The notes under the pieces were generated by a model, which did no database searches, was not told where the DNA came from, and worked only from the letters and a program-made list of their open reading frames with translations. Source: Firmicutes bacterium HGW-Firmicutes-15 (GTDB lineage: Bacteria; Bacillota; Syntrophomonadia; Syntrophomonadales; Syntrophomonadaceae). From it: a DNA stretch of 64,000 nucleotides. Positions 2,899 to 16,860 of this stretch are shown piece by piece (position 1 is the stretch's first letter; each line of letters opens with the position of its first letter). The DNA is taken from assembly GCA_002840245.1 (NCBI GenBank), contig PHAA01000008.1, positions 1-64,000 on the forward strand. The letters are read 5' to 3'. The position numbers and the translations under genes are program-made.

Positions 2899-2940
2899 AA
2901 AAATGTCCTCTATTAGTTCTAAACTTAAGAGGACATTTTT
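2899..2940 (-). terminator. Hairpin terminator downstream of the candidate RNA gene
   Basis: Perfect 13-base arms at 2899-2911 (AAAAATGTCCTCT) and 2928-2940 enclose a 16-base loop. Read on the minus strand the second arm ends in five T. It sits 14 bases beyond the 3' arm of the 2954-3200 element, where a terminator of a minus-strand RNA would be expected. Because the arms start with A and end with T, it could also work on the plus strand. Confidence 0.7.
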
Positions 2941-2953
2941 TATGTTTATATAA

Positions 2954-3200
2954 GGTGGCGGAGAAAGACTTAGAATCTCTGATCAAAAGACTGATAACCT
3001 CTCCTTTAACCTGAAACGAACCGCCTGATTACTATACTGACATTTATTAGACGAACCTAAACCAGATTTAAATTTAACTGATCTAAACTAAATGCTTACG
3101 AGATTTACTACTCTTTGACTGATCTTTGATGGACTAGGAAACCAATAAACCTGTAATCCTATGATACTAGAACTGTGGGTACTATTATTTCTCCGCCACC
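2954..3200 (-). ncRNA. Candidate structured non-coding RNA closed by a perfect 13-bp helix
   Basis: A 950-base gap between the XRE gene and the SPRY/FN3 gene holds a 247-base unit whose two ends, 2954-2966 (GGTGGCGGAGAAA) and 3188-3200, are perfect inverted complements. On the minus strand it is preceded by a good -35/-10 promoter (3236-3209) that would start transcription at the first bases of the 5' arm, and it is followed by a hairpin terminator (2940-2899). No open frame of useful length or ribosome-binding site is evident inside. The layout fits an independent structured RNA. I could not match it to 6S, tmRNA, SRP or RNase P RNA by eye. Confidence 0.55.
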
Positions 3201-3208
3201 GTAATTTC

Positions 3209-3236
3209 ATTATAGTATAAAAGATTGAAAAAGCAA
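3209..3236 (-). promoter_or_regulatory. Sigma-A-like promoter of the candidate RNA gene
   Basis: On the minus strand TTGCTT (3236-3231) and a perfect TATAAT (3214-3209) are separated by 16 bases. The expected start point, 7 to 8 bases further, falls at 3200-3201, exactly where the 13-base terminal helix of the 2954-3200 unit begins. The -35 box matches only the first half of the consensus. Confidence 0.6.
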
Positions 3237-3462
3237 TAACCAAATAAAACCAACATTATAACCGATCCCTGGCCAGGATAAAGCTTCTTCGTCATATTAC
3301 TTTAATGTCAATTGGATATCCAGGATAGTGCCAGATCATTACTTCAAGGATCGAAGCATTCACTCCTCAGTGGATCTATTATCCTGAGAAAATTTAGGTT
3401 GAATAACAAATAACAGCTAGGTTCCTGTATAATTTAAAAAAATGTCAGAAGGAGTTGTCTTT

Positions 3463-4539
3463 ATGAAAAAGAAGAAAATTTTGTTATTTACATTGACGTT
3501 CCTAGTCCTTATTTTGGCATTAGAGGTGGGGAGTGCCAGCGCAGAAGATGTGACGTGGAATCCAAACGATAAAGGAGCAGCTATTGTTTTATCAAATGGC
3601 AATCTAACCGCAGTTTATAATAATAGTAATGGAAGTAATGTAAGAGCTTCAGAAGGCAAAACTCAAGGAAAATGGTATTGGGAGATAAAAGTAGATTCTG
3701 CTAATTCAGATGCTGCTGTAAATTTAGGTGTAGCACACCCATTACAGTCGATCTCCACTGATATTTATCCTAACTTTAATAATCAGGGATTCCTTGCCAG
3801 ATTTTACCCCCAAAATACTGGAGATATTTATGGTTTCAGTCTCGATATGGACTCCAAAATATTGCAAATTAGCAAAAATAATACCCTTGTTGCAACAAAA
3901 TCAAGTGTAGCCGGAGAAGTAAGGCCTATTTTGGGCGACAATAATACAAATTCAAGTGCTAGCTATACTGCTAATTTCGGTGCAACACCGTTTGTGTATT
4001 CTGTTCCAACTGGGTATCAGCCATATGATGGATCTCAGCAAAAAACTCAAGCACCAACCAACTTGGCAGCAACGTCTGGTGATGCCCAAGTGACTTTATC
4101 TTGGATAGCTGTAACTGATGCAACAAGTTATAAAATAAAACGCGCTGCAACCGCTGGTGGGCCATATAATGAAATTGAAGCGAACATAAAAGACACCAGC
4201 TATAAAGATACTCGCTTAACAAATGATAAGAAATATTTCTATGTAGTTAGTGCTGTTTCCTCTAGTGATGAGAGTGTTAACTCGACCGAAGTATCTGCAA
4301 CTCCGAAGGCAGCGTCAAATACTGGCAACGGAACCCTGATAGTAACATTTGAGAATGCTCCAGATAAGGTATTAAGTATAAGCATGGCACAAATTGAGGA
4401 ATTCATAAGTTGGTATAATGATCCTTCCAGGGTAGGAAATGCATATATGATAAAGAGCCCAGATACCGGACTCTTTAAAAGTATTAAGTACTATTTGGTA
4501 TTTGATAAGATCGTAGCCTGGGAAGTTAGACAATACTAA
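3463..4539 (+). CDS. Secreted SPRY domain plus fibronectin type III protein
   Basis: I choose ATG 3463, which has AGAAGGAG eight bases upstream, rather than the ATG at 3442. The product (358 residues) has a signal peptide (lysines, then LLFTLTFLVLILALEV, cut near SASA). Residues about 25-185 form a SPRY-like domain (GKWYWEIKVDS, later IYGFSLDMDSK), about 190-280 a fibronectin type III domain (APTNLAATSGDAQVTLSW...YFYVVSAVSS), and the last 70 residues an unrecognised domain with a WYND motif. SPRY and FN3 are protein- or sugar-binding modules, so an extracellular binding role is inferred. No sorting signal or SLH domain is present. Confidence 0.75.
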   Translation: MKKKKILLFTLTFLVLILALEVGSASAEDVTWNPNDKGAAIVLSNGNLTAVYNNSNGSNVRASEGKTQGKWYWEIKVDSANSDAAVNLGVAHPLQSISTDIYPNFNNQGFLARFYPQNTGDIYGFSLDMDSKILQISKNNTLVATKSSVAGEVRPILGDNNTNSSASYTANFGATPFVYSVPTGYQPYDGSQQKTQAPTNLAATSGDAQVTLSWIAVTDATSYKIKRAATAGGPYNEIEANIKDTSYKDTRLTNDKKYFYVVSAVSSSDESVNSTEVSATPKAASNTGNGTLIVTFENAPDKVLSISMAQIEEFISWYNDPSRVGNAYMIKSPDTGLFKSIKYYLVFDKIVAWEVRQY

Positions 4540-5510: not shown

Positions 5511-5650
5511 GTTATGTCGAGTAGATATAAACAAGGACTGACAGCAACTTCCTTCCGAAGTATTCTGAATAAAAAAGGGGATGTCCGAGGGTGATTTACA
5601 GCGGAAAAATAAAGATATGCAACACTAAACCCTAAAACTATAAATAGGCA

Positions 5651-5675
5651 AAAAAATAAAGGGCTTTAAAAGCCC
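5651..5675 (-). terminator. Terminator of tRNA-Leu(CAA)
   Basis: On the minus strand, arms 5675-5670 and 5666-5661 (GGGCTT/AAGCCC) with a three-base loop are followed by a run of T broken by one A (5660-5651). It lies 12 bases beyond the CCA end of the tRNA. Confidence 0.8.
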
Positions 5676-5686
5676 TACATTTCTAG

Positions 5687-5771
5687 TGGTGCCAGAGGTG
5701 GGACTCGAACCCACACGCCTCGCGGCACACGATTTTGAGTCGCGCTCGTCTGCCAATTCCGACACTCTGGC
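5687..5771 (-). tRNA. tRNA-Leu (anticodon CAA)
   Basis: The minus strand reads a class II tRNA of 85 bases with acceptor stem GCCAGAG/CTCTGGC, discriminator A and an encoded CCA. The anticodon loop CTCAAAA lies on a five-base stem, giving CAA for UUG codons. The T arm holds GGTTCGAGTCC and there is a long variable arm, as expected for tRNA-Leu. A consensus promoter and a terminator flank it. Confidence 0.95.
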
Positions 5772-5808
5772 TCAGGATACTAAGGTCACCATAGGTGACG
5801 CAAACATT

Positions 5809-5837
5809 ATTATACTGGGATGGATCATAGTTGTCAA
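5809..5837 (-). promoter_or_regulatory. Consensus promoter of tRNA-Leu(CAA)
   Basis: The minus strand has TTGACA (5837-5832), a 17-base spacer and TATAAT (5814-5809), both perfect. The expected start point near 5801 leaves about 30 bases of leader before the tRNA. Confidence 0.9.
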
Positions 5838-6014
5838 TACTTCATCTCATGCTCTTTATGAAAGCAAAAGTATTTTAAAGGGAAGTTGCAGGGGCTTTCA
5901 TAATATGCGGAGGTTTTATAAAAAGGGGAAAACACGCTATAATAAAACGGGGCAGGGAATTAGACCCTGCCTGCTGAATTTTACCAACGAGCTTATATAA
6001 GGGGGGATTTACTG

Positions 6015-8639
6015 ATGTTCGATAAAAAAATCATGCTAATAGATGGGAATAGCCTGCTATATAGGGCTTTCTATGCGCTGCCTCTCCTGCAAACCAGAGA
6101 GGGTATATATACAAATGGTGTATATGGTTTTCTAACCATGCTGAACCGTGCCACTAGAGAGTTGCAGCCGACTCATATTGTGGTGGCTTTTGACAAGGAC
6201 AGGAAAACGTTTCGCAATGATACCTACAGTGACTATAAGGCAAATCGGTCGGCTACTCCGGATGAACTTAGCGGGCAATTCCAAATTATACGCGAAGTTC
6301 TTGCGGCGCTTAACATCAACTATATAGAGATGCAGGGTTATGAAGCGGATGACATTATTGGTACCCTTAGCCTGAATGCCGAAGCGGCAGGGATGGAAAG
6401 TATTATTGTTACAGGAGACGGCGATTCGCTGCAGCTGGTATCAGAGCATACCCGGGTTTATATGACTAAGAAGGGTATCAGCGAGATAGAAGTTTATGAC
6501 CCGGCCAAGGTACTGGAAAAATGGGAAGTTAAGCCCGCTCAAATGATTGAGATTAAGGCTCTTATGGGGGATAGTTCAGATAATATTCCCGGTGTACCTG
6601 GGATAGGGCCCAAAACCGCAATTAAGTTAATTAAGGAATATGGGAATCTGGAGAAGCTCTATGAAAACCTGGATAAGATAAAAGGAAAAAAGCTGGTGGA
6701 GAATCTGGCAGAGCACAAAACACAGGCCTTTATGAGCCGTGAACTGGCGACGATTGTTAGGGATATGAATCTCGAAGGCCAGATGGATGACTACCAAGTC
6801 CAGGAAGCGAATCCGGCTGAACTTAGGCCCCTTTACCAGCGACTCCAGTTTAATAATTTTCTAAACGCTTTACAGGAGTCCCGTCCTACTTCCGATCTCG
6901 CTCTGGTTCTGAATCCAATCGAGGTTGGTCCTGATGCCAGGGAACTAAACAGCGAAGAAGAGCTGAAGATCGTGTTGCGGAGTTTTGAAGCAGTGGAGGG
7001 TGTAACTATTAATATAGAGACAGATTACCGCCATCCCATGTGGGGGAAAATCCAGAAAATATATTTAGCCTACCGGAAGGAAGTATTTTATCTGGATATG
7101 AGCGAAAAGGGCGGGTTTAAACTGGACTGGCTTAAGCCCCTGTTGGAGGACGAGGCCATCCCCAAATACCTGCATAACGCCAAGTTTGCTCAGGTAGTTC
7201 TGCTGCGGCATGGCATCCAACTGAGGGGCATAAAGGGAGATACACTGCTATTTACATATGTGTTGGATCCATCGTTTCAGAGTGAGGAGCTCAGGGCTAC
7301 CGTGGGGCACCATTTACAGGTGGACACTTCAAGCAGCAGCACAGCTTATCTGGTGTCGCAGATAAGGACAGTGTATACCCTGTTAGAGGCTCAAGGTGCT
7401 CCGGAATTAAAAAGCCTGCTGGATGATATCGAGTTACCGCTGTCGGATATCCTGGGGATGATGGAGTTCTGCGGGGTCAAGGTGGATAAAAAAATCCTGC
7501 TGTCTATCGCCGGAGAGTTAGGAGAGCGCATTGCCAGGGCAGAGATTAAAATCCAAGAACTGGCCGGGAGCAGCTTCAACATCAATTCACCCAAACAACT
7601 GGGGAAGGTACTTTTTGAAGATCTGGGTCTTAAGACGGCTAAGAAGACCAAAAGTGGATACTCCACAGGGCAGGAAGTTCTGGAAGGACTGTACGGAGAA
7701 CATGAGATTATTGCCTATATTATGGAACACCGCCAATTGAGTAAGCTGAAATCAACTTATGCTGATGCCCTGCAGAACTTGATTCAGCCTGATACTGGTC
7801 GGGTGCATACGATCTTCAAACAAGCTATAACTGCTACCGGTCGGCTTTCCAGTGTGGAGCCGAATCTGCAGAATATTCCAATTAGGATGGAGGAAGGGCG
7901 GAGAATTAGAAAGGCATTTGTGGCTGCGGATAAAGAGTGGCTTATCTTCTCTGCCGATTACTCACAGATTGATTTGCGGTCTTTGGCCCACATCAGCGGA
8001 GATGAGATCCTGATTGATACCTTTAAAAAGGGGATTGATATTCATACCCGCACTGCATCGGAGATATTTGATGTTCCTCTGGAAAAAGTGGACAACGAAT
8101 TGCGCCGCAGAGCCAAAGCAGTTAATTTTGGAATTATATACGGGATTAGTGATTTTGGTCTGGCCCGGGGTACGGGTGTAAGCCGCAAAGAGGCCGGCCG
8201 CTATATTCAGGAATACCTGGATTCCTATCCGGGTGTGAAGCAATACATGGAGGATGTAGTTCAGTTTGGTATAGAAAAGGGCTATGTGGAAACCATTTTA
8301 AAAAGACGTAGGTATTTACCTGATTTGCGTGCCAAGAATAAGATGGTACAATCATTTGCCAGGCGTATGGCTCTTAATACACCCATTCAGGGTACTTCGG
8401 CAGATATAATCAAGCTGGCCATGCTCAAGGTCGCCGCGGAACTCAAGGCGCGTCAGCTAAAATCCCGCCTGTTGTTGCAGGTGCATGACGATCTGGTACT
8501 CGAAGTACGCAAGGATGAATTGGAAGAAGTGGCCTATTTGGTGAAAAACTGCATGGAAAGTGCCTATACCTTGAAAGTGCCCTTGATTGTTTCCATGAAG
8601 GCGGGACCCAACTGGTATGACATGCAAAACTGGGAATAG
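6015..8639 (+). CDS. polA: DNA polymerase I
   Basis: The 874-residue protein has the full Pol I layout: 5'-nuclease with helix-hairpin-helix (about 1-290), a degenerate 3'-5' exonuclease region (about 300-460), and the family A polymerase domain. It fills gaps and removes primers in replication and repair. The exonuclease acids are lost (INIETD for FDTET; HNAKFAQ for the KYD motif), so proofreading is probably absent, as in many Firmicutes. Motif B (RRRAKAVNFGIIYG) is normal. Motif A reads DYSQIDLR, with Asp653 where Glu710 of E. coli is expected, and motif C reads VHDDLV, with Asp826 for Glu883. It heads the polA-mutM-ytaF-coaE-slt operon. Confidence 0.97.
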   Translation: MFDKKIMLIDGNSLLYRAFYALPLLQTREGIYTNGVYGFLTMLNRATRELQPTHIVVAFDKDRKTFRNDTYSDYKANRSATPDELSGQFQIIREVLAALNINYIEMQGYEADDIIGTLSLNAEAAGMESIIVTGDGDSLQLVSEHTRVYMTKKGISEIEVYDPAKVLEKWEVKPAQMIEIKALMGDSSDNIPGVPGIGPKTAIKLIKEYGNLEKLYENLDKIKGKKLVENLAEHKTQAFMSRELATIVRDMNLEGQMDDYQVQEANPAELRPLYQRLQFNNFLNALQESRPTSDLALVLNPIEVGPDARELNSEEELKIVLRSFEAVEGVTINIETDYRHPMWGKIQKIYLAYRKEVFYLDMSEKGGFKLDWLKPLLEDEAIPKYLHNAKFAQVVLLRHGIQLRGIKGDTLLFTYVLDPSFQSEELRATVGHHLQVDTSSSSTAYLVSQIRTVYTLLEAQGAPELKSLLDDIELPLSDILGMMEFCGVKVDKKILLSIAGELGERIARAEIKIQELAGSSFNINSPKQLGKVLFEDLGLKTAKKTKSGYSTGQEVLEGLYGEHEIIAYIMEHRQLSKLKSTYADALQNLIQPDTGRVHTIFKQAITATGRLSSVEPNLQNIPIRMEEGRRIRKAFVAADKEWLIFSADYSQIDLRSLAHISGDEILIDTFKKGIDIHTRTASEIFDVPLEKVDNELRRRAKAVNFGIIYGISDFGLARGTGVSRKEAGRYIQEYLDSYPGVKQYMEDVVQFGIEKGYVETILKRRRYLPDLRAKNKMVQSFARRMALNTPIQGTSADIIKLAMLKVAAELKARQLKSRLLLQVHDDLVLEVRKDELEEVAYLVKNCMESAYTLKVPLIVSMKAGPNWYDMQNWE

Positions 8640-9561: not shown

Positions 9562-10197
9562 TTGGAGTTGCTAGCGGTATTGTTGTTTGCATTGGCGGTT
9601 AGTTCTGATGGGTTTATGGTAGGGATAGCCTACGGGGTTAGGAAAATTAGAATGCCTTTTACGTCTCTGTTGGTTATATGTGTGGCCTCAGCGACTGCTG
9701 TGACCGTAGCTATGCTTTTGGGTAAGGGTTTGACCTGCTTTCTCAACCCGGTATTGGCCTCCCGCTTGGGAGCGATTACCATAATGTTTATCGGTCTTTT
9801 CTTTCTGGTACAGTCCTTCCGGCAGAAGCTAGGTGGCATGGAAGGAAATGAAGCAGATCCATTGCTGTCCATCAAGGTAAAACCCCTGGGGATAATAATA
9901 CAAATACTTAAGGAACCATCCAGTGCTGATTTTGACAGGTCGGGCGAAATTGGTATGAAGGAAGCATTTTTCTTAGGGTTGGCTCTGGCAATGGATGCCT
10001 TCGGGGCGGGGATAGGTATAGCTATGGCAGGATATAATATTTTATTTACAGCTCTCAGCGTGGGTATGCTAAAATTTATATTAGTCAGCAGCGGGCTAGT
10101 GCTGGGGCGGAGAGTGAAAAATGAACGCTGGCAGTATCTTTCCTCGGTTCTAACTGGTTTAATTCTGCTAGCTCTAGGCGTATCAGAGTTTATTTAA
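9562..10197 (+). CDS. ytaF: Sporulation membrane protein YtaF (MntP-like fold)
   Basis: The likely start is TTG 9562, eight bases after GGGAG; another in-frame TTG at 9547 overlaps that site. The product (about 211 residues) has six hydrophobic segments and two repeated halves with the motif SSDGFMVGIAYG near the N-terminus and AMDAFGAGIGIAMAG in the second half, as in YtaF and the related manganese exporter MntP. YtaF is a sporulation membrane protein in Bacillus. Its place between mutM and coaE is the same as in B. subtilis. Transport substrate is not established. Confidence 0.85.
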   Translation: MELLAVLLFALAVSSDGFMVGIAYGVRKIRMPFTSLLVICVASATAVTVAMLLGKGLTCFLNPVLASRLGAITIMFIGLFFLVQSFRQKLGGMEGNEADPLLSIKVKPLGIIIQILKEPSSADFDRSGEIGMKEAFFLGLALAMDAFGAGIGIAMAGYNILFTALSVGMLKFILVSSGLVLGRRVKNERWQYLSSVLTGLILLALGVSEFI

Positions 10198-14628: not shown

Positions 14629-16860
14629 TCATAATATATCTTTAATCTTTTTAACTAAACTGGGATCAAATTGTGTACCAGAACACCTTTCTATTTCCAC
14701 CCAAACCTCTGTTTTATCTAACGCTCTTTTATAAGTTCGTCCATTGATCATAACATCATAGGCATCTGCTAATGCAATTATGCGAGATATAAGCGGTATA
14801 TTTTCACCCTTAAGCCCAAAAGGATAACCCGTACCATCCCAGTGCTCATGGTGATATAGTATAGTTTCAGCTATAGGTGCTAATTCAGGTGAACTTAAGG
14901 CAATACGATAGCCAATCTCGGGATGCTTTTTAATTAATTCCCATTCTTCTGCAGATAGTTCACCAGGTTTATTAAGAATACTGTTAGGGATAGCTATCTT
15001 GCCTATATCATGCAATCTAGTAATCAGTTTTAAGTTATTCATTTCAATACCATTCAGATTAATTATCTTTCCAATTTTCTGTGCCATCTTAAGCATTCGC
15101 TGGCAATGTTCTTCTGTTTCGTGGCTTCTGGTCCAGAGAGTTTTCTCCAGAGACGTTATAAAAGAACTACGGGCGCTTCTGCTTTCCATTAGCTTATTAC
15201 GATACATGTTATCCTCTGCTTCTTTTATTACGTTTTTTACGTCCATATTGGCAGAAGTTTTACTGGCCATACCCAGTGAAATACTTGCTTGTATTGATGC
15301 TTCATTAATATTCAGGTTGCCTTTATTAATTCGTTCAAAAATTTTAGAAGCAGCCTCATAATCACAGCTGGGTAAAAGAATGATAAACTCATCTCCACCC
15401 CAACGAGCTACAATATCATCCTGGCGGCATAAATCAGTTAATATTTTGGCTGCAGAAACTAAAAGCTTATCCCCTTCATAGTGTCCGAAAGCGTCGTTTA
15501 TTATTTTTAAACCGTTAACATCCCCCATAATAATACTTAGTGGTATATGGCGCTCATTATCAAGGCGTTTTAGTTCTTCTTCAAAAAAAGCACGATTAAA
15601 TAAGCCGGTTAGTTTGTCGTGAAAGCTCAAATATTTAATATTGTCTTCTGCTATTCTACTTTCTGTAATGTCTAATGCAATCGATAAAATGGCTTGTTGC
15701 CCATTAAACTGAATTATACTAGCCGATCTGTCAACCCAAAAATCTTCGTTATTATTGCCAATCATTTTAAACTGAATACGGTCTGGCCCTTTTATGTCAG
15801 CTAAAAGCAATTCCGCCGAGCACTTGATTACCATATCTCGGTAATCTGGATGTATGAAATCCAACCCTTTAGATTTCATACATTGCTCATAACTAAGACT
15901 ACAAGCTTGAAGATAAGTAGTATTTGCATATAGAAATCTGTGATTGCTATCAACCACAGATATTAATACCGGAGCTGTATTAGCTAAGGTGCGAAAATTA
16001 GACTCGCTTTCTAGTAAAGCAGCTTCAATTCTTTTGCGGTCAGAAATGTCTTTTGATATAACGATTACATATTTTTCTCCATCAATTTCAATAAGCTCTG
16101 CTGAAAATATAGAGGTCTTCAATTCACCGGACTTCATTTTAGAAACAATTTCAAAATTACGCATATACCCTTGAGCAAGTATCATATTTGCCATTAAATC
16201 AAGACTTTCAATGTCCATTAATCCTAACTCCACACAATTATGACCTAATGCTTCTTCTCTGGTATAACCTGAATATTCAACCCAGGCATCATTTACTTCG
16301 ACCATATATCCTTGTATATTTTCTGTGATAACTATGGGATCAGGTCCCAAATAAAAGACCTTATTGAACTTTTGTTCTGATTCCCGCAGTGCTCTTTCCA
16401 TATTCTTTCGTTTACTGATATCTCGTGCTACACAATGAATAGCATATACCAGATTGTTTTTATATATTTGTCTAAGGTTTACTTCCAGGTAAACTAAAAC
16501 CTTATCTTTAGTCTGTAATTCAAGTTCATAGCTAACGGTAGCACCAGGAGTAATCTCCGCTCTAATTTCCTGCATTATTTTTTGATACTCTTCTTGAGAA
16601 ATCAATTCTAGTATTGAGGTGATTTTATCCAAACCGGTAATATAGTTAAACATCTGTTCTGCGGCTTTATTTACATTTATGATTTTACCTTCCATATCAT
16701 GAATGTAGATTATATCCATGGCATTATAGAATAAATCCCTGTATTCATCTAATATCTGCAAGGATTCATCAATTTGGTTTTGTAGTTTTTTATTAACCTG
16801 ATGCAAATCGTGTAGTTCACTTATTATTTGCTCTTTGGTCCTGTCTTCTTCATATCTCAT
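14629..16860 (-). CDS. PAS-PAS-PAS-GGDEF-HD-GYP cyclic-di-GMP enzyme
   Basis: ATG 16860 has GGAGGT seven bases upstream and is preferred to TTG 16875. The 743-residue product has an N-terminal coiled coil, three PAS domains (about 40-150, 160-280, 290-405), a GGDEF domain and a C-terminal HD-GYP domain. The cyclase motif is intact (RWGGDEFIILL) with the inhibitory I-site RQDD five residues before it. The phosphodiesterase motifs HDIGKIAIP, HPEIG, HHEHWDGTGYP are also intact. It may both make and break cyclic di-GMP under PAS control. No membrane segment is seen. It lies between two att-like repeats. Confidence 0.93.
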   Translation of the reverse strand: MRYEEDRTKEQIISELHDLHQVNKKLQNQIDESLQILDEYRDLFYNAMDIIYIHDMEGKIINVNKAAEQMFNYITGLDKITSILELISQEEYQKIMQEIRAEITPGATVSYELELQTKDKVLVYLEVNLRQIYKNNLVYAIHCVARDISKRKNMERALRESEQKFNKVFYLGPDPIVITENIQGYMVEVNDAWVEYSGYTREEALGHNCVELGLMDIESLDLMANMILAQGYMRNFEIVSKMKSGELKTSIFSAELIEIDGEKYVIVISKDISDRKRIEAALLESESNFRTLANTAPVLISVVDSNHRFLYANTTYLQACSLSYEQCMKSKGLDFIHPDYRDMVIKCSAELLLADIKGPDRIQFKMIGNNNEDFWVDRSASIIQFNGQQAILSIALDITESRIAEDNIKYLSFHDKLTGLFNRAFFEEELKRLDNERHIPLSIIMGDVNGLKIINDAFGHYEGDKLLVSAAKILTDLCRQDDIVARWGGDEFIILLPSCDYEAASKIFERINKGNLNINEASIQASISLGMASKTSANMDVKNVIKEAEDNMYRNKLMESRSARSSFITSLEKTLWTRSHETEEHCQRMLKMAQKIGKIINLNGIEMNNLKLITRLHDIGKIAIPNSILNKPGELSAEEWELIKKHPEIGYRIALSSPELAPIAETILYHHEHWDGTGYPFGLKGENIPLISRIIALADAYDVMINGRTYKRALDKTEVWVEIERCSGTQFDPSLVKKIKDIL

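Follow-up and report, generated by a model that had tools for sequence, protein, structure and literature searches.

The window, by which we mean the whole 64,000-nt stretch of contig PHAA01000008.1 of Firmicutes bacterium HGW-Firmicutes-15 that was analysed, contains a perfect 13-bp inverted repeat (arms 2954-2966 and 3188-3200) closing a minus-strand unit of 247 nt. Is this unit a gene for an RNA, and what could such an RNA do? An earlier note on the same letters had called it an independent non-coding RNA that, by eye, matched no familiar class. Judging from sequence comparison, it is very probably a real, previously unassigned stand-alone small RNA gene of the Syntrophomonadaceae.

The RNA gene in the window

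The following features were located in the window.

2899..3201, minus strand: whole transcription unit; primary transcript of ~300 nt predicted from promoter and terminator, with a putative start
3231..3236, minus strand: -35-like element TTGCTT, 16-bp spacer to TATAAT
3209..3214, minus strand: -10 box TATAAT, 8 bp upstream of the 5' arm
3188..3200, minus strand: 5' arm of the closing helix, GGUGGCGGAGAAA, its first 10 nt being the conserved core
2967..3187, minus strand: interior of 221 nt, fast-evolving, with an anti-structure dinucleotide order and ten RGUU
2954..2966, minus strand: 3' arm of the closing helix, UUUCUCCGCCACC, reverse complement of the 5' arm
2899..2940, minus strand: intrinsic terminator, a 13-bp hairpin with a 16-nt loop and a T-rich tail

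The coordinates of the closed unit were re-derived, and its arms are exact reverse complements. The minus strand thus reads TTGCTT, 16 bp, TATAAT, 8 bp, GGTGGCGGAGAAA, the interior, TTTCTCCGCCACC, 13 nt and the terminator hairpin, whose own arms (2899-2911 and 2928-2940) are both perfect and lie outside the second helix arm. The TATAAT box with a partial -35 element ahead of the 5' arm and the hairpin terminator past the 3' arm, both described in the earlier note, are therefore in place. A consensus promoter and terminator scanner missed the two signals because of its limits on the -35 element and on loop size. When the minus strand of 2899-3236 was folded, z was -4.75, and none of 100 shuffles was equally stable. 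No second exact copy of the arm exists within the 64 kb. The claim that the unit holds no reading frame also stood: the longest ORF of the window RNA is 17 aa, and no frame is conserved among its homologues, where the longest ORFs range from 9 to 61 aa.

Homologues of the RNA in Syntrophomonadaceae

Homologues were collected by a DNA search of relatives, a paired-arm scan of the loci found, and then pattern and covariance-model searches. The DNA matches in relatives cluster at both ends of the unit. In total 44 copies were collected, every one in Syntrophomonadaceae. At least 33 of the 54 family genomes have a covariance-model match; the 9 genomes taken from elsewhere in the class have none, and neither has any genome outside the family among 249 sampled from the phylum. 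One carrier is the cultured Syntrophomonas zehnderi OL-4 (contig NZ_CGIH01000020.1, locus L075, 7379-7579, minus strand). Two copies occur in 11 genomes, often one long and one short; the second copy in the window's genome is 188 nt long and lies on contig C9 (model match 15014-15215). The RNA was undetected in 21 of the 54 family genomes, the complete genome G026 among these, and therefore the lineage can do without it; these 21 are not proven negatives, since many MAGs are incomplete and weak copies may escape. In 14 genomes, the majority of which lack a model match, the fabG locus was inspected; the RNA was present only in G015, where it was already known. G026 has neither a model match nor a candidate copy at its fabG locus. 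Many phyla are represented among the listed matches of a scan for arm plus promoter. Those that also have the 3' arm, again among the matches listed, are Syntrophomonadaceae or Syntrophomonas records, plus one Bacillota MAG (L139) that belongs to the family genomes searched here. Two out-of-family matches, in G122 and G179, were regarded as coincidental; with the covariance model there was no match beyond the family. No description of such an RNA was found in the literature searched.

Transcription signals accompany the copies. A -10-like box lies 5-9 bp ahead of the helix in 43 of the 44, and a TTG stands 16-19 bp from it in 37 (chance ~0.11 each). Terminators that are unrelated in sequence follow the 3' arm at the equivalent place in nearly all homologues. 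The homologues thus have a promoter and a terminator of their own in varied gene surroundings. This, together with the compensatory changes described below, bears out the reading as an independent non-coding RNA.

Gene context

The genes downstream vary: a fabG-like gene follows at 14 loci, SIR2 at 3, and the others are mostly single. At the 14 fabG loci the gene is on the same strand as the RNA and a terminator intervenes. This recurrent arrangement speaks for a role in cis, with the unit as leader or attenuator for the gene behind it (fabG, sir2 or XRE). Such a role is nevertheless very unlikely, because the downstream genes differ by locus and at 8 of 34 loci the next gene lies on the opposite strand, convergent and within ~300-460 nt of the RNA start. 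With convergent genes at about a quarter of the loci, the RNA is better described as a stand-alone gene than as a leader. The unit is therefore independent, and the XRE gene of the window lies outside it. This gene (2292-2510, downstream of the RNA) is real (HTH_26, E 9.5e-18), as the earlier note had said, but its adjacency is peculiar to the window locus. Least credible of all is that the inverted repeat works as DNA, as the ends of a mobile element or as paired protein-binding sites. A variable interior between perfect inverted arms, and two copies in several genomes, would suit this idea, but in nearly all members the promoter lies outside the first arm at a fixed distance and the terminator outside the second. 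Moreover, there is no transposase-sized frame inside, synteny at fabG is conserved, and the composition of the interior is strand-specific.

The closing helix

The 10-nt arms are letter-identical in 36 of the 44 copies, as compared with a mean column identity of 36% for the alignment. Compensatory changes were found at 4 of the 10 helix pairs, in four genera. Pair 1 changes from G-C to A-U in both arms in G014, pair 4 from G-C to A-U in both arms in G015, and pair 6 from C-G to U-A in both arms in G024; pair 2 changes from G-C to A-U in G042 and G008, with loss of pair 1. The imperfections are a U-G wobble in one copy, a bulge in one and a mismatch in one. The diverged copies came from the model search and were left out of model building. 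In the model alignment of 38 sequences, 100% of the counted cells are paired, three pairs are double-changed, and none of 500 shuffles equals this. The direct reading of the arms is the better evidence, because the alignment is fitted to the helix. Helix stability is ~ -24 kcal/mol (cofold), and the arm sequence is conserved beyond the needs of pairing alone. Compensating changes had been named in the earlier note as a check on the helix; the double changes were seen, and free mutation of the arms did not occur. On this comparison, the closing helix is under selection as a helix.

The interior of the RNA

Between the 12-nt ends, the interior of the 44 copies is 123-289 nt long. RNAalifold recovers the outer helix alone, with no conserved inner helices. 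Pairing of ACCAC with GGUGGU is present in some subgroups and was rejected as a general feature. Judged by the alignment, the outer helix is the only conserved structure in the RNA proper, the terminator being separate. Thus, of the structured RNA first proposed, the outer helix and the separate terminator stand, and a conserved fold of the interior does not.

The interior folds poorly. Its composition-shuffle z averages +1.26 (n=44) versus -1.13 for intergenic DNA of the same genomes (p = 7.5e-12, a value inflated by the relatedness of the copies, as are all cross-member statistics here). With dinucleotide shuffling the mean z is +0.60, with spread. The window interior is an exception, having a dinucleotide-shuffle z of -2.46 (better folding) and a composition-shuffle z of +0.5. 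Even so, the prediction has roughly half of the interior paired. Dinucleotide order accounts for much of the poor folding: the GC dinucleotide occurs at 0.40 of expectation, versus 1.35 in intergenic DNA, and AT at 0.67; the steps AG, GU, UC and CA make up 64%, versus 36% for their reverse complements. This strand-specific signature has its maximum in the 64-kb window exactly at the RNA. The interior is biased against self-pairing and is apparently kept unfolded by selection.

Short motifs are abundant. RGUU averages 8.3 per RNA where 4.9 would be expected; 43 of the 44 copies exceed their expectation, and the excess goes beyond dinucleotide order. These sites are predicted to be no more unpaired than the remainder (0.39 vs 0.44), and no periodic spacing of motifs was found in the interior. 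Near the 3' end there are anchored short motifs, GGYGG in 26 of 44 copies and GAGAGG-like in 20, and the CC dinucleotide is over-used although the RNA is C-poor. In the long copies of G047, G027 and G040 (L042, L050 and L216), near-tandem interior units of 14-15 nt occur, such as CAAGTTAGTTAATTC, which suggests expansion by repeat slippage within one genus.

Comparison with known RNA classes

A covariance search of the segment against Rfam 15 gave no family, in agreement with the earlier note: at the gathering threshold there was no match at the window locus or in 20 homologue-bearing sources, and with E up to 10 the window locus gave nothing of note (best E 1.1, far under the cut-off). 6S RNA (RF00013) resembles the new RNA in being stand-alone and about as long, and in having a promoter of its own and a stem that closes it. 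It was rejected, since RF00013 does not match the new RNA and the 6S of the same genome is encoded separately (C30:19753-19929, E 2.2e-20); 6S was found in 48 of the 54 family genomes. The CsrB, CsrC and RsmZ RNAs are likewise stand-alone, often two per genome, fast-evolving, with a repeated short motif and their own terminator. In contrast to them, the new RNA has a conserved outer helix, and its repeated motif is RGUU; the CsrA motif GGA is scarce, at 0-3 per member and two in the window RNA. CsrA is encoded in 34 of the 54 genomes, including the window's, and is missing in many RNA-positive and present in many RNA-negative ones. GGA scarcity and the failure of CsrA to track the RNA speak against a CsrB or RsmZ identity. 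A Shine-Dalgarno decoy was rejected as well: complementarity to the 16S tail is not in excess (z 0.16), and there is no clear avoidance of start codons. No reverse transcriptase, as in a retron, was seen when those shared neighbour clusters with sequence to hand were inspected by eye; annotation covered part of the neighbours.

Possible function of the RNA

The conservation of the helix sequence beyond pairing suggests that a protein reads the helix, and multivalent binding is suggested by the long interior, which folds poorly and repeats short motifs. The clamp, the conserved helix sequence and the poorly folding, motif-rich interior together make a sponge or scaffold RNA our first choice; we place an antisense sRNA next and a Y-like particle with another protein third. 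In this proposal the RNA would be made in quantity. The helix, which begins at the putative transcription start or beside it, would clamp the two ends and shield them from 5' and 3' exonucleases, and a protein would probably also recognise it. A stable clamp with its first base in such a position has the design of a 5' stabiliser, and 5'-dependent mRNA decay operates in Firmicutes. The interior would display many copies of a short motif as predicted single-stranded sites, and an RNA-binding protein or partner RNAs would gather there, with the RNA as their sponge or scaffold. We put forward the whole statement, a trans-acting RNA gene with an end clamp and an interior acting as sponge or scaffold, as quite possible and short of probable. 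The predicted sponge or scaffold mechanism by itself is held with slightly more reserve.

An antisense sRNA of the Hfq type, whose unfolded interior would show seeds to mRNAs while the clamp stabilises it, is unlikely but deserves serious attention. Like Hfq-dependent sRNAs, the new RNA is stand-alone, with its own promoter, an intrinsic terminator and unfolded segments; Hfq is encoded in 49 of the 54 family genomes, and the C-rich UUUCCUACCAC or the anchored GGYGGUUC are candidate seeds. The anchored 3'-end motifs and the over-used CC would also fit. However, the interior diverges rapidly and no seed is common to all members, Hfq is found both in RNA-positive and in RNA-negative genomes, and a conserved 10-bp outer helix at the transcription start sets this RNA apart. 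Rather improbable is a Y-RNA-like particle, in which a protein would hold the end helix and the single-stranded loop would gate an enzyme such as a nuclease. The anatomy is that of the animal Y RNAs and bacterial YrlA, with 5' and 3' ends in a conserved stem and a large variable loop, and the arm sequence is kept beyond what pairing requires. Nevertheless, Y RNA with Ro itself was rejected: Ro/TROVE was found in none of the 54 genomes, with Deinobacterium chartae positive as a control, so a different protein would be required. The loop is also longer and biased against folding, and Rfam gave no match. Thus, the absence of TROVE, the distribution of CsrA with the scarcity of GGA, and the lack of anti-Shine-Dalgarno affinity argue against the obvious named versions of these mechanisms.

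To return to the sponge or scaffold reading, the conservation pattern is one that suggests a platform for binding more than a machine that folds. With due caution, we suggest that this may be a bacterial RNA of a new class, one that has to lack internal structure in order to work: a helix-clamped loop of ~125-290 nt serving as a multi-site protein-binding platform. Its letters would be ordered A before G and U before C, so that self-pairing is poor. The RNA adds a family to those of syntrophic anaerobes. Its pattern of conservation is unusual, in that one helix is retained and a long interior is apparently selected against folding. Structured-RNA discovery that rewards conserved internal helices could overlook such RNAs, and strand-specific dinucleotide order could serve to find more of them.

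Other observations

Divergent from the RNA gene, the window encodes a predicted secreted protein of 365 aa (3442-4539, plus strand) that matches fibronectin type III weakly. A tRNA gene lies at 5690-5771 on the minus strand (Rfam score 51.5), and the ORFs 5625-5765 and 5686-6000 that overlap it are probably not genes. In G034 the Hfq match (C12:50190-50375) is broken by a TAA stop. At the RNA locus of the complete genome G009 (L035), plus-strand units of ~155 nt with 21-bp arms GGCTGAGCAAACATGTTTATC lie near 7097-7251 and 9794-9947; two such units in the 12 kb around the RNA look like a mobile repeat. On contig C9 of the window's genome (L032), a MITE-like unit of 170 nt (7177-7346) with 25-bp inverted arms TTTTAGGGACTGTAGAGGAATAAAT lies ~1 kb from the second RNA copy.
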